Notes under the pieces: generated by a model | Told to the model about the DNA's origin: nothing | The model's database searches: none | Seen by the model: the letters and a program-made list of their open reading frames with translations, nothing else | NCBI RefSeq assembly: GCF_017908595.1 | Contig: NZ_JAGKTL010000003.1 | Span: 186,001 to 250,000 of the forward strand | Source of the DNA: Rhodothermus bifroesti | GTDB lineage: Bacteria > Bacteroidota > Rhodothermia > Rhodothermales > Rhodothermaceae | DNA length: 64,000 nt | Direction of reading: 5' to 3' | Shown: positions 39,415-58,315 of the stretch, piece by piece | How positions within the stretch are numbered: the first letter of the stretch is position 1 | Layout of the letters: each line of letters opens with the position of its first letter | Translations under genes and position numbers: made by a program

Positions 39415-39443
39415 TTGACAGGTAACGAGGCGTGTATTATAAT
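39415..39443 (+). promoter_or_regulatory. Consensus promoter of the glucan operon
   Basis: TTGACA at 39415-39420 and TATAAT at 39438-39443 are separated by 17 bp: a perfect sigma-70 consensus in both boxes and spacing. The first LacI-type operator starts inside the -10 box, so a bound repressor would block RNA polymerase. The 68 bp to the lacI-family start codon includes a second operator. Confidence 0.85.
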
Positions 39444-39457
39444 GGAAACGTTTCCAT
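39442..39457 (+). promoter_or_regulatory. LacI-family operator O1
   Basis: ATGGAAACGTTTCCAT is a perfect 16-bp palindrome with the central CG typical of LacI/GalR/CcpA operators. It overlaps the last two bases of the -10 box and the likely start site. An identical copy lies 43 bp downstream (centre to centre), about four helical turns. Confidence 0.9.
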
Positions 39458-39484: not shown

Positions 39485-39500
39485 ATGGAAACGTTTCCAT
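39485..39500 (+). promoter_or_regulatory. LacI-family operator O2
   Basis: Identical copy of the O1 palindrome, ending 10 bp before the ATG of the regulator gene. At this position it would act as a roadblock or support looping with O1. Confidence 0.9.
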
Positions 39501-39510
39501 TTTGCACCAT

Positions 39511-40527
39511 ATGGCTGTAACGATCCGAGACGTGGCGCGCGAGGCTGGGGTAGCTATTGGGACTGTATCGCGCGTATTTAACAATAGTGGCCCGGTTAAG
39601 GCCTCAACCCGAAAGCGGGTTGAAGAGGCTGCGCGTCGCTTGGGCTATGTGCCGCATGGCGCTGCGCGCAGCCTGATTACCCGGCGTACCCAAACGCTAG
39701 GTGTTTTGCTGCCCGACTTATACGGAGAGTTTTACTCGGAGCTGATTCGCGGTTTAGATCAGCAGGCACGGCAGTGGGGTTATCATTTGTTGGTTTCGGG
39801 GATGCATGCCGATGCGCGCGAAATGCGCGCCTTGGTACGGGCTATGCGGGGGCGGGTGGATGGTCTGATTCTGATGGGTCCTCATCTGGAATCGGCCCTG
39901 TTGGCGGAATACTTGCCTTCAGGTGTGCCGGTTGTATTGATAGGTAATCGGGCAGATTTTCCTTGTGATACTGTGCGGGTGGATAATGTGGCGGGTGCCC
40001 GTATGGCTGTTGCGCACCTCATTCAGCTGGGTCATCAGCGCATTGCCTTACTGAGTGGACCGCTAACCAACCAAGAGGCTCGGGAGCGACGCGAAGGGTA
40101 TCGCCAGGCGCTTCAAGAGGCTGGTCTGGCGCTGCTTCCCATGTTAGAGTTGGAAGGCGACTTTACTGAAGCGTCGGGTTATGGACTAGGGCAAAAATTG
40201 CTTTCTCGTAGGCCTACAGCCGTTTTCGTATCGAACGACGCCATGGCCATAGGGCTATTGCGTTGGTTGCACGAGGCAGGGGTGCGTGTACCTGAGCAGT
40301 TGGCGCTGGTGGCTTTCGATGATATTCCTATGGCCCGTTACACGCGTCCGGCCTTAACCACAGTACACAGTCCAATTTATGAGCTCGGTGCTCGGGCAAT
40401 AGATCAGTTGCTTCAAGCGCTTAGTGACGGCGCGCAGCACGTCCCTCAAGAAGTGGTGTTACCTGTGCACCTTGTAGTGCGTGAGTCTTGCGGCGCCGGA
40501 CAAGATCGGTTTCATCCTATACCTTAA
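39511..40527 (+). CDS. LacI-family transcriptional regulator
   Basis: The ATG at 39511 gives 338 residues. A TTG-started extension upstream reads through the operators and is discarded. The N-terminal helix-turn-helix is TIRDVAREAGVAIGTVSRVF with hinge EEAARRLGYVPHGAARSL. The effector domain (residues about 60-335) is a periplasmic-binding-protein fold with LGVLLPDLYGEFYSELIRGL, RVDGLILMGPHLESAL and LALVAFDDIPMARYTRPALT. It probably represses its own promoter and the eleven glucan genes downstream, and is released by an oligosaccharide or a derivative. The first structural gene begins 31 bp after its stop. Confidence 0.93.
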   Translation: MAVTIRDVAREAGVAIGTVSRVFNNSGPVKASTRKRVEEAARRLGYVPHGAARSLITRRTQTLGVLLPDLYGEFYSELIRGLDQQARQWGYHLLVSGMHADAREMRALVRAMRGRVDGLILMGPHLESALLAEYLPSGVPVVLIGNRADFPCDTVRVDNVAGARMAVAHLIQLGHQRIALLSGPLTNQEARERREGYRQALQEAGLALLPMLELEGDFTEASGYGLGQKLLSRRPTAVFVSNDAMAIGLLRWLHEAGVRVPEQLALVAFDDIPMARYTRPALTTVHSPIYELGARAIDQLLQALSDGAQHVPQEVVLPVHLVVRESCGAGQDRFHPIP

Positions 40528-40558: not shown

Positions 40559-42466
40559 ATGAAAACCGCTACAATGCTCAGCTTGCTTAGCCTTTGGGCA
40601 CTGCAAGCTATGGCACAGCCTGCGCGCACCCACGACATCTTGTGGGCCCGCGACGTAGCAGGTGCTGCGCTGACACTCGACGGGCGGCTCGATGAGCCGG
40701 TCTGGCAACAAGCTGAAAAAATTGATCTGCTCTGGAATAATCCGACATTTTTTGCACCTGGCGGTGGTTGGGATAACTTTTTTGATTCTTTCACGATTGA
40801 ACCTACCGATCCTGTCCACGGCACGCTCTACGTACTTCGGGATGGGAACAAGCTCTGGATAGGTGTGGTGGCGCAAGACAAGTCGATTGGGGGAGATCCG
40901 GCCAATGATTTCTTCCGAAATGACGGGTTGATTATTGCCATTTTAAACAAAAACCGGCGCCAGACGGCCTACAGTGGTCCTCATTACACCAAAGATGTGA
41001 ACGTTGACGAATTCTTCTTCACTTGGCGGGGCAGCAGCAATCCAGGGGATCTTCCTACGCTAAACTTGGGGGGACGAGGTGGAGATTTGACCGATGACCG
41101 GACGGTGTGGGATGGGGCGGCCACGGTGGACGGCAGTTCGAACGACGATGCCACCGAAGACATCGGCTATACCTTGGAGTTGTGGATTGACTTATCGAAG
41201 CTAGGCTTCGACATGACGCAGCCGGAGGGAGATCACGTTCCGATTTCGTTTGCCCTTTACGATTATGACTACGCCTGGCCGGCTGATCCTGCACGTCAGT
41301 ATCTGTCGCGGGCCTGGTGGCAGAATCCTTGGGGGAACGATATGCCCCATGGCGTCGGCTATGTACTGGGTCGCCCGGACGTGACCGTGGGCTCTGGAGC
41401 AGTGCCTGTAGTGAATACGCCAGACCTGCGCATCCCTGTGATGCCGCTAGGCGCAACGCTCACGATAGACGGCAAACTCGATGAGTCGGTTTGGATGCTA
41501 CTCGAGCCGACCTTGTCGTTGCAGTACCAGATGCCGCCGGAAGCGCTGGATGCGTTGCCCGGACTCTTTGGCCCCTATCAAACGCACTGGTTTCGTCCAG
41601 GGGGTGACGCCCCGGAGGCGCCACCTGTCGTGGATGCTACAGCAGGACGCATTTACTTGGTAGCCTCAGGGACTACGTTGTACGTCGGACTGGATACGGA
41701 CGATCAGGCGATCAACGGAGACCTAAGCGATGGCTTGCGGATTAACCTTCGCGCCAAGCAAAACAGCCGTCCAGGGGCGCCTTATGTGGTCAAGCGTTTC
41801 CGCATCGGCATTGATTCTACTGGCGCAGCTGTCCTTATGGATGAGGCCCAGCCAGATACTGCCGGCAACACGCCGGTTCAGGCAGCGGTGCATCTGAAAG
41901 GCACCTCCACTGTAGCGGATCCTTCAGATGTTGACGAGGGCTACCAGCTCGAAATTGCTATAGACCTCACCCAGATTCCGGGCTATGAAGAAGGCCTCGG
42001 CGATGGGACGTTGGGGATAGGCTTTACCTTCTTTGATGGCGATGCCCTGGATCCGGCGGATCAGAGCTATAGTACGTTTGTCTGGTACATGAATGAGGGG
42101 AATGCGGACATCTGGGGAGGGCCTACAGCGCTGGCATATGTGGATCCACTTTGGGTCGTGGCTAACGAGTCGTGGTCGGCCGAGTTGCCGCCCACGCTGC
42201 AACTGCTCGGCAATGCGCCCAATCCATTCCGGAGCCAGACCCGGATCGCCTACCTCGTTCCCGAAGCAGGTCAGGTCGAGCTCGAGGTGTTTGATTTGCT
42301 TGGGCGTCAGGTAAAAACTATTGCAGCAGGCTATCAGCATCCTGGACGCCATGAATTCGTCCTGGATGCTACCGGTATGGCTGCAGGGCTTTACGTGTAT
42401 CGCATTCATTGGCAAGCGGGTGCGCGCCGTGCGCAGGCAACAGGCCGCTTGATTCTTGGGCATTAA
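40559..42466 (+). CDS. Secreted CBM9-like double-domain protein with T9SS sorting tail
   Basis: The 635-residue protein has signal peptide MKTATMLSLLSLWALQAMAQ and two related CBM9/DOMON-type domains: one from ALTLDGRLDEPVWQQAEKID (residues about 35-290), the other from LTIDGKLDESVWMLLEPTLS (about 300-545). The final 85 residues (LLGNAPNPFRSQTRIAYLVP, then LEVFDLLGRQVKTIA and GLYVYRIHW) form a T9SS type A C-terminal sorting domain. It is probably exported and anchored on the cell surface, where it could bind the glucan. It follows the LacI gene by 31 bp, and a 12-bp hairpin follows its stop. Confidence 0.82.
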   Translation: MKTATMLSLLSLWALQAMAQPARTHDILWARDVAGAALTLDGRLDEPVWQQAEKIDLLWNNPTFFAPGGGWDNFFDSFTIEPTDPVHGTLYVLRDGNKLWIGVVAQDKSIGGDPANDFFRNDGLIIAILNKNRRQTAYSGPHYTKDVNVDEFFFTWRGSSNPGDLPTLNLGGRGGDLTDDRTVWDGAATVDGSSNDDATEDIGYTLELWIDLSKLGFDMTQPEGDHVPISFALYDYDYAWPADPARQYLSRAWWQNPWGNDMPHGVGYVLGRPDVTVGSGAVPVVNTPDLRIPVMPLGATLTIDGKLDESVWMLLEPTLSLQYQMPPEALDALPGLFGPYQTHWFRPGGDAPEAPPVVDATAGRIYLVASGTTLYVGLDTDDQAINGDLSDGLRINLRAKQNSRPGAPYVVKRFRIGIDSTGAAVLMDEAQPDTAGNTPVQAAVHLKGTSTVADPSDVDEGYQLEIAIDLTQIPGYEEGLGDGTLGIGFTFFDGDALDPADQSYSTFVWYMNEGNADIWGGPTALAYVDPLWVVANESWSAELPPTLQLLGNAPNPFRSQTRIAYLVPEAGQVELEVFDLLGRQVKTIAAGYQHPGRHEFVLDATGMAAGLYVYRIHWQAGARRAQATGRLILGH

Positions 42467-42472
42467 CGTAAA

Positions 42473-42511
42473 GCGCTCCGGGGCTATGCCTAAAGGCGTG
42501 CCCCGGAGCGC
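42473..42511 (+). promoter_or_regulatory. Intercistronic hairpin before the TonB receptor
   Basis: A perfect 12-bp GC-rich stem (GCGCTCCGGGGC with GCCCCGGAGCGC) with a 15-base loop, between the CBM9 stop (42466) and the TonB ATG (42528). No T-run follows, so it is not a classic terminator. It may mark an mRNA 3' end or a stabilising and partial termination point that tunes expression. Confidence 0.7.
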
Positions 42512-42527
42512 CTACCTTATCACAGCG

Positions 42528-45212
42528 ATGCGTGTCAGGCTTCTGGCAAGTTTATGGCTGGGGTTGGTAACGCAGGCCGCTTGGGCGCAAAGCGGTAAGC
42601 TGGCCGGTCGCGTCACCGATGCTCAGGGTACGCCTCTACCTGGAGCCACCGTATTTGTGGAAGGCACTACGCTGGGTGCAGCAGCCGACATCGAAGGCGA
42701 TTATGTGGTACTCCGGATTCCGCCTGGTACTTATCGGGTGCGTTTTAGCATGGTCGGCTATCAGACCAAGCTTGTAGAGGGCGTTGTCATTGCCTCAAAC
42801 CAAACCACAACGCTCAACATCTCGCTTGAGGAGGCCTTGCTGACCGGACAAGAGGTAGTGGTGGTAGCCGATCGGCCAGTGGTCGATGTGACACTGACCA
42901 GTACCATGGCCACGGTGTCGCGACAGGAGATCGAGCAACTTCCCGTTCAGCGTCTGGAAGATCTTGTTAACCTGCAGGCCGGTGTGGTTGATGGACACTT
43001 TCGGGGCGGCCGTTTAGGCGAAGTGCAATATCAGGTCGATGGGGTGACCGTCAACAACCCCTTCAATAATCAGTCGATGCTGACCCTGGACCGATCGGTG
43101 CTGCAGGAAGTGCAGGTGATTCAGGGCACGTTCGATGCCGAGTATGGCCAAGCCCTTAGCGGTGTGGTAAATGCTGTGCTGCGAAGTGGTGCACCCGATC
43201 GCTATGAATTTATGGTAGAAGCTTTTGGTGGCGACTACCTAAGTCCAGGTAGTGATTCTATGTGGGTTCGCACGGCGCAAGGCCGGATGCGGGTAGCCCG
43301 TTTCCCTTTTATTGATCGTTTTGATCCCCAAAGCATCCGCAACCTGCAGGCCAGTTTTAGTGGTCCTTTGCCCCTAGTGCCGCATACCACCTTTCTGCTC
43401 AACGGCCAGCGTTATGAAAACCAGGGACATCTGATGGGCCAGCGGCGCTTTCGGCCGCTGGCCGACGACAGTACGAACTTCGAGCGTGGCATTTTTGTGG
43501 AAAACGGAGATTGGGCTATTGTGCCGATGCAGTTTGAGCGACGCTGGTCTTTCTTAGGCAAACTGAGCAACCGCAGCTTAAGCAATGTCGTGCTCAACTA
43601 TCAGGCCGTTGGCGGATGGGTGCGTCGCAAGCAGTACAACCACGCCTTTCGCTTTAATCCAGATGGCACGCGTACCATTCGCGAGTTCTCCATTTCCCAT
43701 GGTCTGGACGTAACCTACACGCCTACGCCTACGACGTTTGCCGAGCTTAGCTGGCGACACAACGTTTTTGACCATAAAAACGTGCGGTTTGAAGACGTGC
43801 ACCACCCGCTTTACTTCGAATACGGGGCGCCACAGGGCAGTCCAGTCTATGAAGACGGGGCCGTTGTGCAAGGCGTGGATCTAGGGCGTTTTGTGCAGCA
43901 CACCAATGCCCTTGTGGTCAAGCTAGCTCTGACCAGCCAGGTGACCAAAGTACATTTGGTGAAGGCCGGCCTTGAAGTGCAGCCGTTCATCTTAAAGTTT
44001 GGCGTTCCAGGCCTAATTACGCAAGGAGATATTGGCGGAAGGCAGGGCCTAGTGGTGCGTGAGGATTCTATTGGAGCACGGGTGCTGACGTACAAACCGG
44101 TTCAAGGCGCCGCGTTTGTGCAAGATCGGGTGGAATGGGGTAACCTGCGCATTCGGCTTGGCCTGCGGCTGGAATTCTTTGATGCCAATGGGCGCGTGCC
44201 CAGCGACTGGGAAAATCCTGCCAATGCCATTCCTGGTGCCCCACCTTCGCGCTTAGTGCCTACATCGGTCAAATGGGCGATTGCCCCCCGGCTGGGCGTG
44301 TCGTTCCCAATCTTGGCCAATGCCTCGGTCTTTTTCTCCTATGGCCATTTTTACCAGATGCCAGGGCTGGGGCTGCTGTTTGACAATGCAGACTACACGA
44401 TCCTGCGGGATTTGCAAGCCGGAAATGTCAGCTATACGGTCATGGGCAACCCAGACCTAAAACCTGAATTTACAGCACTCTATGAGTTTGGCTTCAAAGC
44501 AGCCTTAACGGCAGACTTGGGTGTGGATGTCAATTTGTTTTACAAAGACATTCGGGACCTGCTGGGGGTGGCTTTTCAGTCGACCTACACGGCTGCAGAG
44601 TATGCCCGATTTACGAACGTGGATTTTGGTCATGTGCGAGGCTTTACGCTTTCACTGGACCAGCGCCGACTGGGGCCGCTGAGCGTGGCGATCGACTATA
44701 CCTACCAAGAGGCTTTAGGCAACAGTAGTGATCCACGCGAAACAGCCAATCGGGCAGCGGCTGGCGAAGATCCGCGTCCGAGGCAGGTGCCGCTCAATTG
44801 GGACCAAAGGCATACGCTAAATGTCAGCGTATTGCTTAGCCAAGCTGAGCGCTACGCGCTAACTGGAATTTTACGTTTGGCCTCAGGACAGCCCTATACC
44901 CCTACGCTGGGCTCTGGCTTTGGGGCTGAGCTGGAACCCAACTCGGGCCGTAAGCCCTCGGCTGTGCTCATCGACGTGCAGGCGGAAAAGTATTTCCGCC
45001 TGGCAGGGTTGCCGCTTGTGCTTTTTGCTCGGGTGTTCAATGTGCTCGATACGCACTATTTCAACGGCTTTGTGTTTGCCGATACCGGAAGTCCGTTTTA
45101 CACGCTTAACCCGATAGCTCAGCGTAACCCGGATCCAGCCCGCTTGTATCCGCCTCGACGGGTAGAGTTTGGCATTCGGCTTCAAGGAAGTTGGTCAGCA
45201 AACGCACGCTAA
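42528..45212 (+). CDS. TonB-dependent outer-membrane receptor (no SusD)
   Basis: The ATG at 42528 gives 894 residues with signal peptide MRVRLLASLWLGLVTQAAWA. A carboxypeptidase-regulatory-like domain follows (GKLAGRVTDAQGTPLPGATV, residues about 25-105), then the plug (VVVVADRPVVDVTLTSTMAT, VQYQVDGVTVNNPFNNQS, EVQVIQGTFDAEYGQALSGV) and a 22-strand-type barrel ending YPPRRVEFGIRLQGSW. It resembles SusC-family receptors but is shorter, and no SusD gene adjoins it. Next in line is a large T9SS protein. It likely imports glucan oligosaccharides to the periplasm. Confidence 0.92.
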   Translation: MRVRLLASLWLGLVTQAAWAQSGKLAGRVTDAQGTPLPGATVFVEGTTLGAAADIEGDYVVLRIPPGTYRVRFSMVGYQTKLVEGVVIASNQTTTLNISLEEALLTGQEVVVVADRPVVDVTLTSTMATVSRQEIEQLPVQRLEDLVNLQAGVVDGHFRGGRLGEVQYQVDGVTVNNPFNNQSMLTLDRSVLQEVQVIQGTFDAEYGQALSGVVNAVLRSGAPDRYEFMVEAFGGDYLSPGSDSMWVRTAQGRMRVARFPFIDRFDPQSIRNLQASFSGPLPLVPHTTFLLNGQRYENQGHLMGQRRFRPLADDSTNFERGIFVENGDWAIVPMQFERRWSFLGKLSNRSLSNVVLNYQAVGGWVRRKQYNHAFRFNPDGTRTIREFSISHGLDVTYTPTPTTFAELSWRHNVFDHKNVRFEDVHHPLYFEYGAPQGSPVYEDGAVVQGVDLGRFVQHTNALVVKLALTSQVTKVHLVKAGLEVQPFILKFGVPGLITQGDIGGRQGLVVREDSIGARVLTYKPVQGAAFVQDRVEWGNLRIRLGLRLEFFDANGRVPSDWENPANAIPGAPPSRLVPTSVKWAIAPRLGVSFPILANASVFFSYGHFYQMPGLGLLFDNADYTILRDLQAGNVSYTVMGNPDLKPEFTALYEFGFKAALTADLGVDVNLFYKDIRDLLGVAFQSTYTAAEYARFTNVDFGHVRGFTLSLDQRRLGPLSVAIDYTYQEALGNSSDPRETANRAAAGEDPRPRQVPLNWDQRHTLNVSVLLSQAERYALTGILRLASGQPYTPTLGSGFGAELEPNSGRKPSAVLIDVQAEKYFRLAGLPLVLFARVFNVLDTHYFNGFVFADTGSPFYTLNPIAQRNPDPARLYPPRRVEFGIRLQGSWSANAR

Positions 45213-45222
45213 TAGCACAAGC

Positions 45223-48200
45223 ATGATGTTCAAGCACTGCTGTGGTTTGGTGGCATGGTCTATTGCTTGGGTTTGGGCAGCGCATGCACAGCACTTGGAA
45301 CCGGTAACACCACCCCAGTGGCGTAGCCAAATCAGTGCTGAGCGCATGGGGCTGCACGATGCCAATCGCATCCGGACCATGTTTTACAACTTTGGCATGG
45401 TGGGCAACTTTGAGGTTAATCCCGATCTAAGCGTTTTCCACTCGGTTGAGGTGCCCAAAGGCATTGGACTGAATTATTCGGATGGCATTACCCCGTTTGT
45501 GCTTACGCGGGTAGCAAGGGCTTCGAATCCAAACGACTCGATTTATGTGATGCTCACGGGCTATCGGGAGCGACAGGCGGTCGACCCCTTTCACCCCGGG
45601 CGCCAACTCCGCTTTGAGCCTCGGCCAGGCTTTTTTGAACCAGATCCTATGATTAACCGAGGTCGCTCGATAGCAGTCTCGAACGATCCCCGTACCTGGC
45701 CAGGTGCTGTTGATGCTGCGGGCAATCCCCGCCAGGGTGTTTCGCCAGAGCAGTGCTGGTATGACAAAATCAATGATCCGGACGACCCCGGCTGGTGCGG
45801 CTCTTGGAATGGCTACTTTGGCAAACGCCCTAATGCCGATCAGGAGTCGTTTTTTGTGATGGACGATAATTTCTACGCCACCTTTGATTTTTACCCAGAT
45901 GCTCGGGACCAAACGCGGCGCGGTCTTGGCCTGCGGGTTGAAGTGCGTGGCTTTCAGTGGTCTAATCCCCAAGCCCAGAATGTCATCTTCTGGCACTACG
46001 ATATCATCAATGAAAGCACGACGGACTACCCGAACATGATCTTCGGGCTTTACATGGACTCGGGCGTAGGGGGCTCGCAGCTCTCATGCGACGGGGTCTA
46101 CGAAAGCGACGACGACAACGCGTTCTATAATACCGAGCTGGGATTGAACCTGGTCTATACGTGGGATAAAGGTGGCCATGGCGTCAGCCTGCGCTCCACC
46201 TGTGAACCTACAGGCTACGTGGGATATGCCTATCTGGAAACTCCTGGAAATCCCTTTGACGGTTTCGACAACGACGAAGATGGCATCACCGATGAACGCC
46301 GCGACAGCGGTCCAGGTCAGCGTATCGAAGGCCAAGAGGCCATTCGGGCTTATGTCATGCAGCATTACGACCTGGCACGGTTTGAGCGGGCTTATGGTCC
46401 ACTAGAAAACCGACCTGCGTATCTGGCAGGCGTTTGGTGGACGGGCGACGAAGACCTTGACTGGGTTTGTGAAGCACACGACACCGGTGCTGATGGCATT
46501 TTTGCAGATCCAGAGGAAGGCATCGAGCCAGATACGGGCGAGGGGGACTGCATCCCTACCGAGGGGGAGCCCAACTTTGACCGCACCGACATTACCGAAA
46601 GTGACCAGATCGGCCTGACTGGCTTTAAGATGAACCGCATTCGTCCCGGTACCGGCTCACCGGCTACGGAGACCGACAACATCGTCTTTTTCATGGATCA
46701 AAACGAATGGCCTAAGCGGCTCTATCAGCAGTTTACGCATCCTGACCCGGCTGTTCGTTTCGATCCTCCCCTAGTGCTGAACTACAACATCGGCTTTCTT
46801 TTTGCTTCTGGACCTTTTGCGCTTAAGGCCGGTCAGCGAGAACGGTTCAGCTTGGCGCTAGCTTACGGAGAAGACCTAATCGACCTGGAAAGCACCGTGC
46901 GTGTTGTCCAGTCGATCTACAATGCCAACTATCAGTTTGCTACTCCGCCTCCAGCGCCAACCGTTCAGGCTTATGCTGGCGATGGTTTCGTAACGCTCAT
47001 GTGGGACAATCGGGCCGAAACAGCTGTCGACCCGGTCACAGGTGAGCGCGACTTTGAAGGCTACCGGATCTACCGGGCCACCGATCCTAACTTTCTCGAT
47101 GCGCAGCTTATTCGGGATGCTCGGGGTGGGGGACCCGTGGGTAACGGACGGCCGATTGCCCAATTTGACTTGATTAATGGTATTCGGGGTTTTTCGGAGC
47201 TGGCGGTGCAGGGCGTGCAGTACTGGTTGGGCGAAGACAACGGCATTCGGCACGTTTGGACGGATTCAACAGTCATCAATGGTCAGCTCTACTACTACGC
47301 CGTAACCGCCTACGACCGGGGTGTGGGACCGCCGTTTAACTTTTATCCTTCCGAGAATGCCATTTCGGTCTCGCGCACGGTTCGCGGCGGTACGATCCTG
47401 CCACGTAATGTGGTGGCTGTAAGGCCTAATCCCCCGGTACCCGGATATATTCCAGGTGCGGTAGTCGAAGGGAGCTTGCGTCAGCTATCTGGCCGTGGCG
47501 TGGGTACAGTGCAGCTGCGCGTAGTGCACCCCGACCGCGTTCCCGAGGGGCATGTGTTTCGCTTGACGTTTGACGCCCCCACCGACAGCATTCGCGCCCA
47601 GTCTTATCGGTTGGTAGATGTTACCACAGGTGAAGTGCTGTTCGAGCATGGACGAGACCTTGAGGGGGCGGGCACGGGACCAGTTGGAGCTGGTCTGCTC
47701 CCAGTCATTCAGACAGCCCTCTGGCCTGAGGTCGATACACTGGCCAGCGGATTTACGGCTGAGAGCCAAACCCGTGTGCGCCTGCGGCCTTTGTATCAAA
47801 GGACGCGCTCCCCAAATCTGCGCCGACCTGGCTACCCAGAGGACCTGCTCATTGTGTTTGCCAACGAGCCGCTCGACACGTCACGCGCGGCCATTGGCAT
47901 GCCGGCTACGCCAGCGCACTTCAAGGTGATCACGGCCGACGGCAGGTGGCAGTTTGATTTTCGCTTTCGGGATGTAAACCGAGACCGCACGCTCAGCGCC
48001 GACGGAGAGTTTATCGAAGTGCTGCTGCCGGAGCGCGAAGGCGGCCCCTTGATCCCTACCTGGCGCATCTTCTACGATGCTGCGCGTACGCCTGCTGACG
48101 CTATGCCGCCCGGTCAAGGTGACGTGTATCGACTCCGCATGCGGCTGCCGCTAACGGCAGAAGACGTCTTCGAGTTTACCACCCAAGGGGCCTACGTGGA

Positions 48201-48540
48201 TGCTGCGCAGGCGCGCGATCAGCTTCGCGAGCAGGAGCCGTATGTTGTTCCCAATCCCTATGTAGCCGCTGCGGCTTTTGAACCTGAACGCTTTGCTGTA
48301 AGCGGACGCGGTGAGCGCCGTCTGGAATTTCGCAACATTCCGGCAGGTGCCACAATCCGGATTTACACTGTGCGTGGCGAGCTCGTGCAGACCCTCCATC
48401 ACGACGGCTCCAGCATCGGTATGGTGCCCTGGGATCTACGTACCAAAGACAATTTGGAAATCGCGCCGGGGCTTTACCTCTTCCACGTTGAAGCACCAGG
48501 TGTGGGCGAATACATTGGTAAGTTTGCTGTCATCAAATAG
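45223..48540 (+). CDS. Very large secreted T9SS protein with FN3 domain, 1105 aa
   Basis: Starting at the ATG at 45223 gives signal peptide MMFKHCCGLVAWSIAWVWAA. No enzyme motif is visible. Residues about 50-330 are beta-rich and aromatic. An acidic DxDxDG calcium-type loop occurs in FDGFDNDEDGITDERRDSG (near residue 350). An FN3-like domain follows near 590-720 (DFEGYRIYRATDPNFLDAQL). Near residues 865-965 comes a module shared with the glucanase at 49595 (GYPEDLLIVFANEPLDTSRA), and at the end a T9SS-type tail (RIYTVRGELVQTLHHDGSSI, GLYLFHVEAPGVGEYIGKFA). It sits where SusD would be, 10 bp after the receptor, and may be the surface glycan-binding partner. Function is not known. Confidence 0.75.
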   Translation: MMFKHCCGLVAWSIAWVWAAHAQHLEPVTPPQWRSQISAERMGLHDANRIRTMFYNFGMVGNFEVNPDLSVFHSVEVPKGIGLNYSDGITPFVLTRVARASNPNDSIYVMLTGYRERQAVDPFHPGRQLRFEPRPGFFEPDPMINRGRSIAVSNDPRTWPGAVDAAGNPRQGVSPEQCWYDKINDPDDPGWCGSWNGYFGKRPNADQESFFVMDDNFYATFDFYPDARDQTRRGLGLRVEVRGFQWSNPQAQNVIFWHYDIINESTTDYPNMIFGLYMDSGVGGSQLSCDGVYESDDDNAFYNTELGLNLVYTWDKGGHGVSLRSTCEPTGYVGYAYLETPGNPFDGFDNDEDGITDERRDSGPGQRIEGQEAIRAYVMQHYDLARFERAYGPLENRPAYLAGVWWTGDEDLDWVCEAHDTGADGIFADPEEGIEPDTGEGDCIPTEGEPNFDRTDITESDQIGLTGFKMNRIRPGTGSPATETDNIVFFMDQNEWPKRLYQQFTHPDPAVRFDPPLVLNYNIGFLFASGPFALKAGQRERFSLALAYGEDLIDLESTVRVVQSIYNANYQFATPPPAPTVQAYAGDGFVTLMWDNRAETAVDPVTGERDFEGYRIYRATDPNFLDAQLIRDARGGGPVGNGRPIAQFDLINGIRGFSELAVQGVQYWLGEDNGIRHVWTDSTVINGQLYYYAVTAYDRGVGPPFNFYPSENAISVSRTVRGGTILPRNVVAVRPNPPVPGYIPGAVVEGSLRQLSGRGVGTVQLRVVHPDRVPEGHVFRLTFDAPTDSIRAQSYRLVDVTTGEVLFEHGRDLEGAGTGPVGAGLLPVIQTALWPEVDTLASGFTAESQTRVRLRPLYQRTRSPNLRRPGYPEDLLIVFANEPLDTSRAAIGMPATPAHFKVITADGRWQFDFRFRDVNRDRTLSADGEFIEVLLPEREGGPLIPTWRIFYDAARTPADAMPPGQGDVYRLRMRLPLTAEDVFEFTTQGAYVDAAQARDQLREQEPYVVPNPYVAAAAFEPERFAVSGRGERRLEFRNIPAGATIRIYTVRGELVQTLHHDGSSIGMVPWDLRTKDNLEIAPGLYLFHVEAPGVGEYIGKFAVIK

Positions 48541-48560: not shown

Positions 48561-49568
48561 ATGAAGCGTGGCTATTGGATTGCTCTGGCAGGAGGGCTGA
48601 TGCTGAGCAGCTTGAGTGCCTTGGCGCAGACGAAAGTGGCTACCACGATCGGGCAAGTGCTTTTAATTGAGCCCAGTGCACGCGCGGCAGCTATGGGAAA
48701 CGCAGGTGTCACCGTAACGGTCGATGCCTTTGGTTTGTACTTTAATCCAGGACTCCCAGCTACGTTGGAACGCTCGGCCGTTGCCATAACCTATAGCCGC
48801 TGGTTGGCCGATTTGAACTACACGTATACAACAGCTTTGGTGCAGTTAGGGTCTAGTGCGCTTTCGCTGGCACTTACTACGCTAAACTCGGGCGAAATGG
48901 AGGTGCGCACGGTTGAGCAGCCGCTGGGTACGGGTGAGCGCTTCACGGTCGAGCAGCTGGTGTTGGGGTTGGGCTTCAGCCGCCGCTTGACGGACCGCTT
49001 TAGCGCAGGCGTGCAGGTTAAGTGGCTACACGAGACGATCTGGCATAGTAGCCTCTCAGCGTTGGCCTTGGATGTAGGCGTGTTTTACGAGCTGCCCTTT
49101 CGGGCTTATTTGGGCGCCAGCTTATCGAACTTCGGCACGCGGGGGCGTTATGATGGAAGGGATTTGCGTGTGCGCTACGATCAGGACCCCAATCGCCATG
49201 GAGACAATAGCAACCTGCCGGCCGCTTTGCACACCGAAAGCTACCAGCTCCCTATCCTGTTTCGGGTCGGGATGGGGTTGCCGCTCGAGCTTGGATCGGG
49301 GCAGCAGCTGCTGCTTGTTGCCGATGCATTTGAACCCAGTTTCAACACCGAAAGCATAAGCCTAGGTGCTGAATGGCAGTTGATGAACGTGTTGGCCTTG
49401 CGGGCGGGTTATCAAAATCTCTTTGAGCAGGATTCGGAGCTGGGATTAACCTTGGGTATGGGTCTGTCGTACGAAGTAGCGAAGCTGCGCTTTCAGTTTG
49501 ATTATGCCTGGGCTAGCCATGCCCATTTGAGCGCAATTCACCGGTTGAGTGCCAGCATTGCCTTTTGA
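48561..49568 (+). CDS. PorV/PorQ-family outer-membrane protein
   Basis: The 335-residue protein has signal peptide MKRGYWIALAGGLMLSSLSA and then the motif LIEPSARAAAMGNAGVTVTV with NPGLPATLERSAVAITYSRW, which mark the PorV/PorQ (LptO) family of FadL-like barrels. PorV delivers cargo from the T9SS translocon to the cell surface and to the sortase PorU. Its place among several T9SS cargoes suggests it handles these exported proteins. An alternative is a barrel that serves transport of the glucan itself. It ends shortly before the glucanase gene. Confidence 0.82.
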   Translation: MKRGYWIALAGGLMLSSLSALAQTKVATTIGQVLLIEPSARAAAMGNAGVTVTVDAFGLYFNPGLPATLERSAVAITYSRWLADLNYTYTTALVQLGSSALSLALTTLNSGEMEVRTVEQPLGTGERFTVEQLVLGLGFSRRLTDRFSAGVQVKWLHETIWHSSLSALALDVGVFYELPFRAYLGASLSNFGTRGRYDGRDLRVRYDQDPNRHGDNSNLPAALHTESYQLPILFRVGMGLPLELGSGQQLLLVADAFEPSFNTESISLGAEWQLMNVLALRAGYQNLFEQDSELGLTLGMGLSYEVAKLRFQFDYAWASHAHLSAIHRLSASIAF

Positions 49569-49594
49569 GCCTCATTAAATCACAAAGCGCGTCT

Positions 49595-52390
49595 ATGTGG
49601 CAATGGCTCGGCTTGCTGCTCGTATGGGGAGGACTGCTGCCCACTGCTTGGGCCCAACAGGCCACATGGACGCTGTGGGAAGGGACCGCAGGGGCAGCCT
49701 ATGAAGCTGCTTCAACGGGCAGTTTTTGGGGGGGCGACACCTTGGTCCTCAGCGGTCCTGGCAACCGATATTTGCCGCTGCGCACGCTTGCCGATGGACA
49801 AGCAGTAGCTCGGCTGGTCTTCCAGCATGTTGAAGGAGGATTTTGGCAGCTGGTCATGTATCAGCCTGAGCGCTTAAGCGACTTGCAAACGCCCGACACG
49901 CTTCGCTTGTGGCTCAACGCGCCAGCTGCACTGCCGGGCGTTTGGTTGCCTGAAATTGCCCTAATCGATCAAGAAGGCCATGCAACGGCTACAGTGGCGC
50001 TCAGGGCAGCTGCAGGGATAGGATGGAACGCGGTCCGTAGCGGCTGGCAGGCCGGTAGCCAGACAGACCTGGCGTTGTCGGTGCGCTACGTGTCGGCGCT
50101 TCCGGCTGAGTTGCCACGCTTAGGCTATCCTGAAGACCTTTGGATCACGTTTGCCGATGCTCCCCTCGATACCTCGCAGGCAGCTGTTGGCTTACCAGCC
50201 CATCCTGCCCGTTTTATGGTGCAAACCTTTTCCGGAACGCAGCTGCCGTTTCGATACCAGGAGCTCAATGGCGATCAGACGCTCAGCGCAGTGGGTGAAT
50301 ATTTCGAGGTGCTTACCCCAGAGCCAGAAACAGGTCGGCTGCGCCCTACGTGGCGTGTAGAAGTTATCCGCACCCCGTCCCGTCCCCCCAGCCTAGGTGA
50401 TCGCTACCTGCTGGCTGTAGATAACGACGGGATCGATAGCGATCCCAACAGCTGGCAAATTTTCCGGATTGCTTGGAGTGATTTTGGCCCCCTGGGTCGT
50501 TTTGATCCTGCTCGCGTAGCCGGCTTCCGCCTGCAAGCTGGTGCAAAGCCCACGTATGGGTTACGTGAGCTGTGGATCGGGCGGGTTGAAGCTGTTAGCC
50601 ATGATCTTGAAGGGACGCCACTGCCACCGCCCCAAGGCGTGCGTGCGGTGGCCGGCGATTCCAGTGTCGTACTTTATTGGGAGCCGGTAGCTGGTGCTGT
50701 GCGCTACCGTGTCTACCGCCAAGATGAGGAGGCGTTGCCTTTTCACTTGCTGGCCGAAGTCGTCCCACCCGAAGATTATGCCGACCTAGCGGTTCGTAAC
50801 GGCCAGACCTATACCTACGTGCTGCGCAGCGTGGATGCTCAGGGGCGCGTGAGCTCCGACAGCGCTCCAGTTCAGGCTACCCCTCAAGCCGGTCTGGAAG
50901 ATGCGTTTTTGGAGCTCGTGCAGCGCCGAGCATTTACCTACTTTTGGCAGGAGGCCAACCCGACCAATGGCCTTATCCGAGACCGAAGCCGTCCTGAAAG
51001 TCCAGCCAGCATTGCGGCCGTGGGTTTTGGGCTTTCGGCGTTGACCGTGGGCATTGATCGGGGTTGGATTTCTCGGGACCAGGGGCGCGGGCGGGTCCTG
51101 CGTACACTGGAGTTTTTCTGGAAGGCACCTCAGCATGCGGCTTCGAATGCAACGGGCTACCAGGGCTTTTTCTATCATTTTCTGGACATGCAAAGCGGGC
51201 AAAGGGCCTGGCAGTCTGAACTCTCTACGATCGACACAGCCCTACTCCTGGCTGGAGTGCTTCACGTGCGGCAGTACTTCGATGGTCAGGAGCCAGAAGA
51301 AGTCCGCATTCGTGCCTTGGCCGACTCGCTGTACCATCGCGTCCGTTGGCGCTGGTTTGCTCCCCGCATGCCGCTACTGGCACTGGGATGGACGCCGGAG
51401 AGCGGCTTTCTGCCTTATGACTGGACCGGATACAACGAGGCCATGATCCTTTATCTGCTGGCCCTTGGCGCTCCCGCAGATTCCTTACCGTCGGCAGCTT
51501 GGCAAGCTTGGACGCAAACCTACCGATGGGCTACGCACTACGGCTACAGTTTTGTGGAATTTCCACCCCTTTTTGGACACCAATACAGTCATGTATGGAT
51601 TGACTTTCGGGGCATTCAGGATGCCTACATGCGCCAAAAGGGCATCGATTACTTCGAGAACAGCCGTCGGGCTACGCTAGCCCAGCAGGCTTATCACCTG
51701 GCTAATCCTAACCGTTATCCGAACTACGGCGCTGACGAGTGGGGATTGACGGCTTCGGATGTGCCCGGAGGTTATCTAGCTCGAGGGGCACCACCGCCCC
51801 AGAACGACGAAGGTACCTTGGCCCCCACAGCCCCTGCCGGTTCAATTGTATTCACACCAGAAGCCTCCCTCTGGGCTTTGCGCACCATGTACCGCCGTTA
51901 CCGCAACCGCTTATGGGGGCCCTATGGTTTTCGGGATGCCTATAACGTGCAGCAAAACTGGTTTGCAACCGACTACCTAGGGATCGATCAGGGTCCAATA
52001 GTGCTCATGATCGAGAACTTGCGCACAGGTGCCATCTGGCGGCGCATGATGACGCACGAAGCCATTGTGCAAGGATTAGCACGGGCAGGTTTTCGTCCTG
52101 TATCTACATCCGCTGCTCCACTTGGCACCTGCGACCCCCAATCGCTCCGGTGTTTCCCTAATCCGTTTACACGGCGTCTCGAAGTGCAGTATGTTCTAGA
52201 AGGGGTAGCACGGGTTACCGTGTACGATGTGCTGGGACGTGTGGTGGCGGTTTATGCACCGCATTGGCAACCATCTGGTTTGCAGCACATGGTGCTAGAG
52301 GCTACGAGCTGGCCGGCAGGTCCCCTACTGCTTGAGCTGCGTGGGGACTCGATGCGAGCAAACTGTCTACTTATTCATCTCAAACCATAA
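49595..52390 (+). CDS. T9SS-exported PF10091 glucanase, likely endo-beta-1,2-glucanase (GH144-like)
   Basis: The ATG at 49595 gives 931 residues with signal MWQWLGLLLVWGGLLPTAWA. Residues about 165-275 repeat the module of the large upstream protein (LGYPEDLWITFADAPLDTSQ). An FN3 domain follows at about 335-425 (VRAVAGDSSVVLYWEPVAGA), then the PF10091 'glucoamylase-like' catalytic (alpha/alpha)6 domain at about 430-835 (RRAFTYFWQEANPTNGLIRD, SAALWTV-type helices, WTPESGFLPYDWTGYNEAMI, HVWIDFRGIQDAYMRQKGID). A T9SS tail ends it (RVTVYDVLGRVVAVYAPHWQ). GH144 endo-beta-1,2-glucanases belong to PF10091. The linkage is inferred from this and from the GH94 partner; the sequence alone does not prove it. 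Confidence 0.85.
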   Translation: MWQWLGLLLVWGGLLPTAWAQQATWTLWEGTAGAAYEAASTGSFWGGDTLVLSGPGNRYLPLRTLADGQAVARLVFQHVEGGFWQLVMYQPERLSDLQTPDTLRLWLNAPAALPGVWLPEIALIDQEGHATATVALRAAAGIGWNAVRSGWQAGSQTDLALSVRYVSALPAELPRLGYPEDLWITFADAPLDTSQAAVGLPAHPARFMVQTFSGTQLPFRYQELNGDQTLSAVGEYFEVLTPEPETGRLRPTWRVEVIRTPSRPPSLGDRYLLAVDNDGIDSDPNSWQIFRIAWSDFGPLGRFDPARVAGFRLQAGAKPTYGLRELWIGRVEAVSHDLEGTPLPPPQGVRAVAGDSSVVLYWEPVAGAVRYRVYRQDEEALPFHLLAEVVPPEDYADLAVRNGQTYTYVLRSVDAQGRVSSDSAPVQATPQAGLEDAFLELVQRRAFTYFWQEANPTNGLIRDRSRPESPASIAAVGFGLSALTVGIDRGWISRDQGRGRVLRTLEFFWKAPQHAASNATGYQGFFYHFLDMQSGQRAWQSELSTIDTALLLAGVLHVRQYFDGQEPEEVRIRALADSLYHRVRWRWFAPRMPLLALGWTPESGFLPYDWTGYNEAMILYLLALGAPADSLPSAAWQAWTQTYRWATHYGYSFVEFPPLFGHQYSHVWIDFRGIQDAYMRQKGIDYFENSRRATLAQQAYHLANPNRYPNYGADEWGLTASDVPGGYLARGAPPPQNDEGTLAPTAPAGSIVFTPEASLWALRTMYRRYRNRLWGPYGFRDAYNVQQNWFATDYLGIDQGPIVLMIENLRTGAIWRRMMTHEAIVQGLARAGFRPVSTSAAPLGTCDPQSLRCFPNPFTRRLEVQYVLEGVARVTVYDVLGRVVAVYAPHWQPSGLQHMVLEATSWPAGPLLLELRGDSMRANCLLIHLKP
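51614..51686 (+). repeat. 73-bp exact repeat, copy 1 (in the T9SS glucanase)
   Basis: Bases 51614-51686 are identical to 55495-55567 in the second glucanase gene. The segment encodes IQDAYMRQKGIDYFENSRRA followed by TLAQ. The flanking sequence 22 bp upstream has only a few third-position differences. Paralogues elsewhere differ clearly at the DNA level. Confidence 0.9.
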
Positions 52391-52402: not shown

Positions 52403-54685
52403 ATGTTGCGCCTGTACCTGGTGCTCCTGCTTACGCTGATTGGCTTTACGACGGCTCGGGCCCAGTCGCTAGAAAAAGCCCGGGAAGATTCTCTGATCGA
52501 AGCGCTGCTGGCCCGCATGACGCTTGAAGAAAAACTTGGGCAGCTCACCCTCTACAATGGAGGGTTGGCGCAAACAGGACCGGTTGTGATGACTGCTGAT
52601 CCAGATGCTGTGCGTCGTGGGAGGGTTGGGGCTGTTATGAATCTTTTTGGTGCGGAAGCAACCTGTGCGCTGCAGCGGCAAGCTGTTGAGGAAAGCCGGC
52701 TAGGCATTCCCCTCCTGTTTGCGTTGGATGTAATTCATGGCTTTCGAACGATTTTTCCTGTACCCCTGGCCGAAGCAGCCACGTTCGATCCCCAGCTGGC
52801 TGAGCAAACTGCTCGTGTAGCCGCGCTTGAAGCTTCGGCGGCCGGGCTGCACTGGACGTTTGCCCCTATGGTCGACATTGCGCGGGATGCACGTTGGGGG
52901 CGCATTGTAGAAGGCAGTGGAGAGGATCCCTACTTAGGATCGCTCATGGCAGCTGCCCGCGTACGCGGCTTTCAGGGGAAGGATCTGCGCGAGCCCTCCA
53001 CCATTATGGCGTGTGCAAAGCACTTTGTAGCTTATGGTGGTGCCGAGGGCGGTCGAGACTACAATACGGTAGACCTCTCTGAGCGTACGCTTCGGGAGGT
53101 TTACCTGCCCCCGTTTGAAGCTGCTGTTCGGGCAGGGGCCCTTTCTGTGATGTCGGCCTTTAACGAGATTGGCGGCATCCCCGCTTCGGCCGATCGGCGG
53201 CTGTTGACCGATGTACTTCGGGGGGAGTGGGGTTTTGAAGGTCTGGTGGTGAGCGACTACACGGCTATCTGGGAATTGCTTTTTCATGGCATTGCGGCCG
53301 ACAGTGCCGAAGCAGGTCGTAAAGCGCTTGTCGCTGGGGTCGACATGGACATGGTTAGCGGCATTTACGTGCACAAGCTGGCCGAGGAGGTGCGGTCGGG
53401 TCGGCTACCAGAGGCAGTCGTGGATGAAGCGGTGCGACGCGTGCTTCGGGTGAAATACCGGCTGGGACTTTTTGAAGACCCCTACCGCTATTGCCGTGAT
53501 CCGGAGCGTGAGCGGCGGTTGTTGTTGGCCGCGGAGCATCGGCGTTTAGCCCGTGAAGTGGCTACAAAAGCCATCGTGCTGCTTAAGAATGAGGGCAACC
53601 TGCTGCCTTTGGCCGATACGCTACGTACGCTGGCCGTTATTGGCGCGCTGGCGACCGATTCAGCGAGTGTGCTGGGACCTTGGGCAGCAACGGGTCGGCC
53701 AGGCGAGGCCGTAACGATCCTTGAAGGCCTTCGGGCAGCTTTGCCCCAGACACGGGTACTCTATGCCCCGGGCTATCCTGAGGCGCCGCCAGGCGGTTTT
53801 CAGGAAATTGTTGCCACTGCTTTAAGCCCCGACACCAGTCGGTTTGCGGAAGCCGTGGCGGTAGCAGCGCAGGCCGATGTGGTCCTCTTAGTGCTCGGTG
53901 AGCACCGAGAGCTCAGCGGCGAGGCTGCCAGTCGGGCTTCGGTAGCGTTGCCTGGGGCTCAGGAAGCGCTGGCCCGACGCATCTTGGCGACAGGGAAGCC
54001 CGTGGTAGTGGTGCTCATGAACGGCCGGCCCTTGGCTATTCCTTATCTTGCCGAAGCTGCACCAGCCATTTTGGAAACCTGGTTTCTGGGCTCTGAGATG
54101 GGGAACGCTGTGGCAGATGTACTTTTGGGTCGGGCTAGCCCAGGTGGCCGCTTACCGGTATCGTTCCCACGGGCAACCGGTCAGGAACCCCTTTATTACA
54201 ACCATAAACCAACGGGTCGACCGCCGCGTGCAGAAGAAAAGTACACCTCAAAGTACCTCGACGTGCACTGGAGCCCGCTGTATCCTTTCGGATACGGCCT
54301 GACCTATACCACGTTCGCCTATCGAAATTTGCGCCTGAGCTCTAGCCGCTTAGGTTTGCAGGATACGTTGCGCCTTACCGTGGAAGTGACCAACACGGGA
54401 ACGCGGGCAGGAGAAGAGGTAGTGCAGCTCTACGTGCGCGACGAAGCCGCCTCGGTCACCCGTCCGGTGCGTGAGCTCAAAGGCTTTCAGCGCGTGGCAC
54501 TTGCACCGGGAGAAACAAAGACCGTGACTTTCGAGCTGCCCGTCGAAGCCCTGCGTTTTTGGGGCTTGGAAAATCGATGGGTGGTGGAACCTGGATGGTT
54601 TACGCTGCAAGTGGGACCTTCGTCGGCAGAAGGCCTCGAAGCCCGATTTGAGGTCTTGGCCCAAAGTACAATTCGATCAAGGTGA
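52403..54685 (+). CDS. Glycoside hydrolase family 3 beta-glucosidase
   Basis: The 760-residue periplasmic enzyme has signal peptide MLRLYLVLLLTLIGFTTARA. Its GH3 N-terminal barrel includes FALDVIHGFRTIFPVPLAEA, RDARWGRIVEGSGEDPYLGS and the nucleophile region EGLVVSDYTAIWEL (Asp285). The second domain (residues about 395-600) provides the acid/base glutamate in GEHRELSGEAASRASVALPG, and a C-terminal FN3-like domain ends at about 750 (EEVVQLYVRDEAASVTRPVR). It would release glucose from sophoro-oligosaccharides. It resembles BglX in layout. The next gene overlaps its stop by one base (TGATG). Confidence 0.94.
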   Translation: MLRLYLVLLLTLIGFTTARAQSLEKAREDSLIEALLARMTLEEKLGQLTLYNGGLAQTGPVVMTADPDAVRRGRVGAVMNLFGAEATCALQRQAVEESRLGIPLLFALDVIHGFRTIFPVPLAEAATFDPQLAEQTARVAALEASAAGLHWTFAPMVDIARDARWGRIVEGSGEDPYLGSLMAAARVRGFQGKDLREPSTIMACAKHFVAYGGAEGGRDYNTVDLSERTLREVYLPPFEAAVRAGALSVMSAFNEIGGIPASADRRLLTDVLRGEWGFEGLVVSDYTAIWELLFHGIAADSAEAGRKALVAGVDMDMVSGIYVHKLAEEVRSGRLPEAVVDEAVRRVLRVKYRLGLFEDPYRYCRDPERERRLLLAAEHRRLAREVATKAIVLLKNEGNLLPLADTLRTLAVIGALATDSASVLGPWAATGRPGEAVTILEGLRAALPQTRVLYAPGYPEAPPGGFQEIVATALSPDTSRFAEAVAVAAQADVVLLVLGEHRELSGEAASRASVALPGAQEALARRILATGKPVVVVLMNGRPLAIPYLAEAAPAILETWFLGSEMGNAVADVLLGRASPGGRLPVSFPRATGQEPLYYNHKPTGRPPRAEEKYTSKYLDVHWSPLYPFGYGLTYTTFAYRNLRLSSSRLGLQDTLRLTVEVTNTGTRAGEEVVQLYVRDEAASVTRPVRELKGFQRVALAPGETKTVTFELPVEALRFWGLENRWVVEPGWFTLQVGPSSAEGLEARFEVLAQSTIRSR

Positions 54686-57440: not shown

Positions 57441-58315
57441 AGCGCTCCTGGACTGAGTTGCGAGCTGCTACTTGGTTTTTAGCCCCAGCGCTGGCGGTGG
57501 TGTTGCTTTTTTTGTTTTTGCCGGCTCTTGCTGCCTGGATGCTTAGCCTAACGGATTTTGATCTCTACACCTTTGCCGAGCCGGCAGCCCTTCGATGGGT
57601 AGGATTACGCAATTACCTGGCTTTGTTGCAAGACGGGCGCTTTTGGAAAGCACTGCAAAATACCCTGATTTTTGTGGGTCTGGGCGGACTGCTTACGCTC
57701 TGCTTAGCCCTTGGGGCTGCCTTGTGGATTCATCAACGATTTGTGCGTTGGAAAGCTTTCTGGCGTATGGTCTACTTTGCGCCTGTTGTGACTTCGCTAG
57801 TGGCTGTGGCTATCGTGTGGCGTTACCTCCTGCACGCGCGCTATGGCTTAGCAAATCAAGCGCTTGCTTGGTTAGGGCTGCCACCCATCGACTGGCTAGG
57901 GGATCCACAGTGGGCACTTCCCGCACTCATCTTGATGGCGGTGTGGAAAAACTACGGGTATGATTTGCTCATTTTTTTGGCTGCACTGCAGGCTATCCCT
58001 GAAGAGCTTTATGATGCTGCCCGAATGGACGGGGCCAGCGTGTGGCAACAGCTGCGCTACGTGACGCTGCCTGCCCTCCGTCCGATGATTGCCTTGGCTG
58101 GACTCATTACGGCCAATGGCTACCTGCAAGTTTTTGCCGAGCCGTACGTGATGACGCAGGGTGGTCCGCTAGACGCCACGCTAACGCTGGTGCTTTTGCT
58201 CTACGAGCAGGGTTTCCGGTGGTGGCGATTAGGCTATGCGGCTGCCTTGGCCTTCGTGCTGTTTGTCTTGATGCTCGGCCTTTCCTGGATGCTCTGGCGT
58301 CAACATAGGTCATGA
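57437..58315 (+). CDS. Sugar ABC transporter permease (MalF-like)
   Basis: The ATG at 57437 overlaps the binding-protein stop (ATGA). The 292-residue protein has six membrane helices and the coupling-helix motif EELYDAARMDGASVWQQLRY (EAA loop) followed by VTLPALRPMIALAGLI. The opening helix (FLAPALAVVLLFLFLPALAA) and GLRNYLALLQDGRFWKALQN are typical of MalF/UgpA-type sugar permeases. It pairs with the permease at 58312. No ABC ATPase gene is in the locus. Confidence 0.93.
   Translation: MKRSWTELRAATWFLAPALAVVLLFLFLPALAAWMLSLTDFDLYTFAEPAALRWVGLRNYLALLQDGRFWKALQNTLIFVGLGGLLTLCLALGAALWIHQRFVRWKAFWRMVYFAPVVTSLVAVAIVWRYLLHARYGLANQALAWLGLPPIDWLGDPQWALPALILMAVWKNYGYDLLIFLAALQAIPEELYDAARMDGASVWQQLRYVTLPALRPMIALAGLITANGYLQVFAEPYVMTQGGPLDATLTLVLLLYEQGFRWWRLGYAAALAFVLFVLMLGLSWMLWRQHRS

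Follow-up and report, generated by a model that had tools for sequence, protein, structure and literature searches.

A TonB-dependent receptor, a giant surface protein and a PorV-like barrel as a candidate SusD-independent glycan importer of Rhodothermus bifroesti

The receptor-giant-barrel operon

The window analyzed here is the whole stretch of 64,000 nucleotides taken from Rhodothermus bifroesti (NCBI RefSeq assembly GCF_017908595.1, contig NZ_JAGKTL010000003.1, positions 186,001 to 250,000, forward strand), and all coordinates below refer to it. One tight operon, with all genes on the plus strand, encodes a TonB-dependent receptor, a protein of 1105 residues (here called the giant) and a barrel of the PorV/PorQ family, together with regulator, enzyme and ATP-binding cassette (ABC) transporter genes. 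Its order is LacI-type regulator, CBM9-like protein, TonB receptor, giant, barrel, PF10091 enzyme, glycoside hydrolase (GH) of family GH3, second PF10091 enzyme, ABC binder, two permeases and GH94. Receptor and giant genes are separated by 10 bases, giant and barrel genes by 20, and the barrel gene overlaps the next one. These three genes, below referred to as the cassette, probably constitute a TonB-dependent glycan importer independent of SusD, in which a capture protein exported by the type IX secretion system (T9SS) is held by a private PorV/PorQ-like barrel.

The receptor (42528-45212, 894 residues) matches the Pfam families CarbopepD_reg (PF13715, 2.9e-19), Plug (PF07715, 7.7e-7) and TonB barrel (PF00593, 1.5e-31). 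In this domain layout it is indeed like SusC, as the initial annotation had stated; membership of the SusC family, in contrast, did not hold, with a score of 87.4 bits on the SusC/RagA model TIGR04056 against a cut-off of 368. On this model, the scanned receptors that have a giant or T9SS partner, five in number and including that of the window, all lie at 71-87 bits. As a positive control, the five SusD-partnered receptors of the genome (5/5) reach 391-875 bits.

That no SusD lipoprotein gene follows the receptor was confirmed, since none is found in the window and the giant gene follows instead. Genome-wide, five matches to the SusD model PF07980 are present, all of them on contigs other than the window's and each directly adjoining a SusC-family receptor. 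Nor is the partner protein itself a SusD: PF07980 is absent from the giant and from the families matched by 32 members of its family, and the mostly-beta model predicted for the giant is unlike the SusD/RagB fold, which is mostly helical and of TPR type. A SusD encoded elsewhere and co-regulated with the receptor was not found either. The LacI-type operator TGGAAACGTTTCCA occurs in two exact copies genome-wide (39443-39456 and 39486-39499, no strand assigned; exact matches only), both located upstream of the LacI gene of this operon.

Conservation of the cassette and distribution of SusD

Homologues of the giant were detected in 37 of 40 sampled relatives and at at least 570 places in the collection of named genomes, with relatives in records titled KSB1, Ignavibacteria, Eisenbacteria, Krumholzibacteriia, Calditrichia, Neomarinimicrobiota, Gemmatimonadetes, Stahlbacteria and Rhodothermales. 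The arrangement is not confined to one phylum, to which the initial annotation had assigned it. Gene order was followed in a set of 64 giants, comprising the window copy, three paralogues of this genome and 60 regions chosen from the listed relatives (of the genome and its order), with gene calls made by a codon-scored caller. First calls placed a receptor directly upstream of 62 giants and a barrel directly downstream of 60; the six exceptions, read by hand, turned out to be gene-calling artefacts, and all 64 then have both neighbours. A wider set of 84 giants, located on the best 80 of the at least 570 named loci, covered other bacteria of the Fibrobacterota-Chlorobiota-Bacteroidota (FCB) group. 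Here, the receptor lies directly upstream in 79 cases (exceptions are three contig ends and two giants at locus L169) and the barrel directly downstream in 78 (three contig ends, two giants at L169, and L194 with one gene between). Locus L169, from a Calditrichia record, shows a reordered cassette in which two tandem giants are followed by the receptor and then the barrel.

Distance correlations were calculated over 131 cassettes with all three genes near full length, giving r=0.912 for receptor and giant, 0.874 for receptor and barrel, and 0.822 for giant and barrel. Giant and LacI correlate at 0.726, compared to 0.938 for receptor and giant in the same subset (n=58), and giant and CBM9-like protein at 0.803, compared to 0.931 for receptor and giant in the same 93 cassettes. 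The CBM9-like gene also changes its position among the loci, whereas receptor and barrel positions hardly change. Chance adjacency of the three genes was rejected. A segment-wise mirror-tree analysis gave no support for a C-terminal domain of the giant co-diversifying specifically with the barrel.

Clustering divides the cassettes into five clades. CBM9-like or T9SS-tailed relatives accompany 36 of 36 clade 3 loci and 55 of 63 clade 5 loci, part of which may match the T9SS tail only, and in four loci a module of the giant is common to the adjoining glucanase. Both observations would fit an explanation in which the three genes adjoin by common regulon only, the giant being a surface adhesin or enzyme scaffold and the receptor working alone or with the CBM9-like protein. 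Given the mobility and the lower correlation of the CBM9-like gene and the nearly fixed positions of receptor and barrel, this explanation is considered quite improbable.

No SusD gene (PF07980) was found closer than 16 kb to any of the 64 giants, the nearest lying at 16.7 kb (distances computed from 69 of the SusD places listed), and 26 of the 64 have a SusD on the same contig. Likewise, phmmer searches using the genome's five SusDs as queries gave no SusD homologue in the examined flanks of the 131 cassettes. Of 148 sampled genomes of the phylum, 63 contain the giant and 81 SusD; both occur in 36, the giant only in 27, SusD only in 45 and neither in 40. SusD and giant were thus not found to exclude each other strictly: some lineages have both systems, and one alone is found in others. 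Of 37 genomes from the own class and order, 27 carry both, while the other 111 genomes comprise 9 with both, 23 with the giant only and 39 with SusD only (p=0.057). One genome labelled Melioribacter roseus contains giants and no SusD match. For this species, SusCDE has been published as Mros0761-0759 (excerpt of PMC3534657), and gene order did not settle whether it is identical to the cassette.

With five SusD homologues in the genome of R. bifroesti, the receptor might be served by one of them in trans. This is scarcely credible, as these SusD genes are paired with receptors of the SusC family, to which the window receptor does not belong, as no further exact copy of the operator exists outside this operon, and as the M. 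roseus-labelled genome has giants without any SusD match.

More distant cassettes of this genome are found at loci L062, L063, L065 and L066. They combine a TonB receptor, a T9SS protein with a PorZ-like end and a PorV-like barrel, and are neighboured by two-component regulators and FG-GAP/ASPIC-UnbV or TPR proteins. Their middle proteins match the PorZ model and have mainly the C-terminal domain in common with the giant.

Predicted fold, proposed export and proposed anchoring of the giant

The giant gene (45223-48540) encodes exactly the 1105 residues first reported, comprising a signal peptide, a supersandwich-like N-terminal region, an FN3-like region, beta domains and a putatively PorZ/PorU-like C-terminal domain. 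No Pfam family matches the giant at E<=0.01. The DxDxDG-type acidic loop pointed out in the initial annotation is real, with D349, D351 and G354 invariant in 32 aligned members, as are the further acidic positions D409, D420, D424, E449 and E459. The FN3 domain is likely and not firm: it has no Pfam match, and a profile search against the PDB returned only the Fn3-like 3mpc_A at E=0.044.

The predicted model of the giant is confident (pLDDT 90.6, pTM 0.83) and dominated by beta structure; its few helices are short, and nothing in it resembles an alpha/alpha barrel. In structure comparisons with this model, residues ~10-700 align with GH15, GH94, GH65, GH116, GH149 and GH161 enzymes and with galactose mutarotases, and the 50 structural matches listed are enzymes of these types, galactose mutarotases or similar. 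The best match is dextran dextrinase (Z 20.9, 265 residues, 3.0 A), and the 1,2-beta-oligoglucan phosphorylase LpSOGP (5h3z) is found at Z 15.8. No SusD is among the 50, which by itself speaks neither for nor against a SusD relationship. Foldseek gave weak whole-chain scores, with a probability of 1.00 for laminaribiose phosphorylase and with PorZ and PorU among the matches. The parts common to the giant and the GH enzymes are presumably the beta-supersandwich domains of the latter, and the N-terminal region of the giant, as modelled, has a GH94/GH15-type beta-supersandwich fold. Since its best structural matches are such enzymes, the giant itself could be regarded as an enzyme of the GH94/GH65/GH15 kind. 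This is very unlikely considering the short helices, the missing alpha/alpha-barrel-like stretch and the lack of a catalytic-domain Pfam match in any of the 32 members.

Residues 826-985 of the giant (47698-48177) recur in the adjoining secreted beta-1,2-glucanase with 52% identity in the matched part. The shared module is present in 4 of 47 such enzymes (the window, L075, L077 and L080), so it would be a recent domain transfer between neighbours, and it is perhaps a docking module.

Export of the giant by the T9SS had been assumed from the start. A standard type A tail (PF18962/TIGR04183) was detected neither on the giant nor on any of the 32 members at E<=0.01, and no type B tail or PorP/SprF model is among the matches of giant or barrel. 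The C-terminus matches PorZ instead (E=0.01 for the window giant itself), and the genome encodes SprA and PorU/PorV, its own PorV scoring 294 on NF033710. The PorZ model matches the C-terminus in 20 of 32 giant members (best 5.5e-8), and a 35-member C-terminal profile searched against the PDB retrieves PorZ (5m11, 1.3e-4) and PorU (6za2, 0.0022). Conservation within the giant is highest over its C-terminal 100 residues, with a mean majority fraction of 0.65 compared to 0.57, 0.60 and 0.39 in the other segments.

The gene after the giant (48561-49568, 335 residues) encodes the PorV-like barrel that had been predicted, matching PF19572 (PorV) at 5e-12 and passing the PorV/PorQ family model NF033709 with 190.8 bits at a cut-off of 90. 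It stays below the equivalog models for PorV (NF033710, 95.5 bits versus a cut-off of 250) and PorQ (NF033711, 75.6 bits versus 220). The nearest structures to its predicted model (pLDDT 92.4) are the T9SS translocon chains 8gl6_F (Z 33.9; T9SS RemA-CTD complex) and 6h3i_F (33.8), both of which we take to be PorV, and FadL ranks behind these chains at Z 30.5.

In known systems, PorV anchors PorU and PorQ anchors PorZ (excerpt of PMC5562754). The C-terminal domains of PorU and PorZ are both retained, and cognate PorV-like barrels have been suggested to shield such domains from cleavage (excerpt of PMC10202324). PorP-like barrels hold type B cargo in a similar way (excerpts of PMC9143113 and PMC12618676). 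As the giant may carry a PorZ/PorU-like C-terminus, it is natural to infer by analogy that the barrel would hold the giant on the cell surface as its private anchor. Alternatively, the barrel could be a dedicated secretion shuttle only, PorP/SprF-like, which draws the giant out of the SprA translocon; the giant would then bind glycans in free or lipid-linked form and never enter a complex with the receptor. Shuttles of this kind are encoded directly downstream of type B cargo (excerpt of PMC12618676), and the barrel belongs to the family of PorV, itself a shuttle. Nevertheless, such a role is unlikely: the receptor is linked as tightly as the barrel and has the best correlation with the giant, the standard type A tail is missing from the giant, and the C-terminal domains of PorU and PorZ stay on their barrels (excerpt of PMC10202324).

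Probable sugar specificity, proposed mechanism and known systems

The secreted beta-1,2-glucanase-type enzyme encoded after the barrel (PF10091, sub-threshold T9SS tail; 49565-52390) matches XcSGL at 1.6e-120 and the endo-beta-1,2-glucanase 5gzh at 6e-67; XcSGL (XCC2207) is a beta-1,2-glucanase (excerpt of PMC12102758). It is followed by a GH3 beta-glucosidase (52403-54685), a second PF10091 enzyme with an N-terminus that is lipoprotein-like by eye (54682-56136), an ABC solute-binding protein related to Listeria Lin1841 (56148-57440; 1.2e-55), two ABC permeases (57431-58315 and 58312-59145) and the last listed open reading frame (59150-62521). We take Lin1841 to be the Listeria sophorooligosaccharide binder, in agreement with the excerpt of PMC8861115. 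Because of the enzymes in the operon, beta-1,2-glucan is proposed as the sugar, and with its homologues of a beta-1,2-glucanase, a GH94 phosphorylase and a sophorooligosaccharide ABC binder the window cassette belongs to a beta-1,2-glucan utilisation locus.

In the clade of the window, 35 of 36 cassettes adjoin GH144 and/or GH94 genes, as compared to 1 of 95 in the other clades; the lone exception, L162, is a sequence which ends at the giant. GH144 neighbours were counted with the second PF10091 enzyme as query, since the module shared with the giant could have inflated the count, and the other query gave the same numbers. Clade 2 has alpha-amylases (17/59), LacI regulators and peptidyl-prolyl isomerases as neighbours and appears from these families to be a starch-type locus. 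Neighbours of the third clade comprise GH16, GH3, GH10 and carbohydrate-binding modules, those of the largest clade sugar ABC systems, alpha-amylase, GH16, malectin and GH3. Overall, glycan enzymes, LacI, CBM9 or sugar ABC genes head the tallies of these other clades, whereas the 25 families listed, out of 103, for background genes of this genome include no glycoside hydrolase. These clade tallies are pooled and not given per cassette (proteins used: 59/65, 73/74 and 75/80; background genes: 66/68), clade 5 neighbours were sampled from 22 of 63 cassettes, and GH13 counts were disregarded because the query's T9SS tail inflates them. The pair standing next to unrelated non-glycan genes, named in the initial annotation as an objection, was not seen when the tallies of the giant family were pooled, and was partly seen for the distant loci L062, L063, L065 and L066.

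The LacI-family regulator itself (39502-40527, ATG at ~39511) matches PF00356 (6.8e-17) and PF13377 (2.3e-43). Exact copies of TGGAAACGTTTCCA occur also at loci L075 and L076 and near-copies at L081-L083; several Ignavibacterial and other relatives have TGTAAACGTTTACA in its place. Judging from its two operators, the LacI repressor would control the beta-1,2-glucan operon. The giant would be exported via SprA, and its C-terminal domain, taken as PorZ/PorU-type, would dock on its own barrel in the manner of PorU-PorV and PorZ-PorQ and so keep the giant surface-bound. There, the supersandwich region may catch beta-1,2-glucan chains, with calcium at the invariant acidic loops perhaps contributing, and would hand the glycan to the receptor in direct contact for import driven by TonB energy. 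As judged from known families, breakdown would be completed in periplasm and cytoplasm by periplasmic enzymes together with the ABC importer and the GH94 phosphorylase.

An alternative glycan-capture arrangement, as initially proposed, is the best-supported reading of the fixed gene order, the missing SusD and the clade-specific glycan genes. Several observations weigh against it. Neighbouring genes correlate with the giant, too (solute-binding protein 0.862, n=26), and the C-terminal segment tracks the barrel no better than the receptor (0.648 versus 0.679). The window giant alone matches PorZ weakly, and WD40-repeat proteins outrank PorZ in the 35-member profile search, with scores above PorZ and PorU that are sums of many weak repeats. 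A supersandwich fold by itself is no proof of sugar binding, the distant same-layout cassettes L062, L063, L065 and L066 are not clearly beside glycan genes, and giant and SusD are only weakly exclusive across genomes (outside the class, as given above). A wider proposal would see in the cassette a second, FCB-wide paradigm of TonB glycan import, with a T9SS capture protein derived from a glycosidase supersandwich, kept on the membrane for good by its uncleaved C-terminal domain in a private PorV/PorQ-like barrel, and a receptor-capture-anchor complex that replaces SusCD and is duplicated and retuned per glycan; for this, we consider the chances to be even.

Compared to SusCD/RagAB, the cassette has in common a CarbopepD_reg TonB receptor, an adjoining surface-partner gene and glycan enzymes plus regulator in one locus, and it is like SusCD in layout and probably in task. 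It differs in a receptor that fails the SusC/RagA model, in a T9SS-type beta-rich partner in place of a SusD lipoprotein and in the added PorV/PorQ-like barrel. Since neither the SusC model nor a SusD partner applies, the cassette would represent a form of TonB-dependent glycan import outside SusCD. The PorU-PorV/PorZ-PorQ attachment complex similarly pairs a surface protein with a barrel of this family, and the C-terminal domain of the giant may be of the type found in PorZ and PorU; unlike this complex, the cassette includes a TonB receptor and lies among glycan genes, occurs in several copies per genome and has a barrel below the equivalog cut-offs. Type B cargo with PorP/SprF (SprB-SprF, PG1035-PorP) shares the surface cargo with its own barrel encoded directly downstream, whereas the cassette has another type of C-terminal domain, another barrel family and a TonB receptor.

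Two published loci are comparable. The beta-1,2-glucan (SGL) cluster of Ignavibacterium album contains GH144, GH94, an ABC binder and a TonB-dependent transporter, but the excerpt of PMC8861115 does not mention giant and barrel, and marks the TonB transporter step as being without biochemical evidence for close homologues. In the Rhodothermus marinus xylan locus (excerpt of PMC6987092, Table 1), Rmar_1070-1072 lie beside a SusCD pair and comprise a TonB receptor and then two hypothetical proteins, of which the one next to the receptor is T9SS-tailed. The likeness is one of layout, and the excerpt does not treat Rmar_1070-1072 as a unit. No description of the cassette was found in the open-access literature searched, and excerpts of PMC5317091 (Caldithrix abyssi) and PMC11285876 (structures of C-terminal domains) contain nothing on it.

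For Bacteroidota, textbooks present SusCD as the glycan importer, and polysaccharide utilisation loci are located and counted by their SusCD pairs. Should the proposed role of the cassette be true, this practice misses loci in Rhodothermales, Ignavibacteria and several candidate phyla; in the phylum sample, 27 of the 63 giant-bearing genomes are without a SusD match. Under the same premise, the T9SS would acquire a further role in building stable transport complexes, and the many-copy natural series of pairs would make the protection of C-terminal domains by PorV-like barrels testable.

Upstream of the receptor, the secreted CBM9-like protein (40559-42466) matches PF06452 at 8.6e-6 and carries a T9SS type A tail (TIGR04183, 25.0 bits at a cut-off of 23). 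Between both genes, a very stable RNA hairpin without a T-run is predicted on the plus strand (42466-42530, -37.5 kcal/mol, z -5.5). At L061 and in clade 2 loci, a gene for a PPIC-type peptidyl-prolyl isomerase is located upstream of the receptor (10 of 59 neighbours scanned), which is perhaps a folding helper for receptor, giant or barrel.

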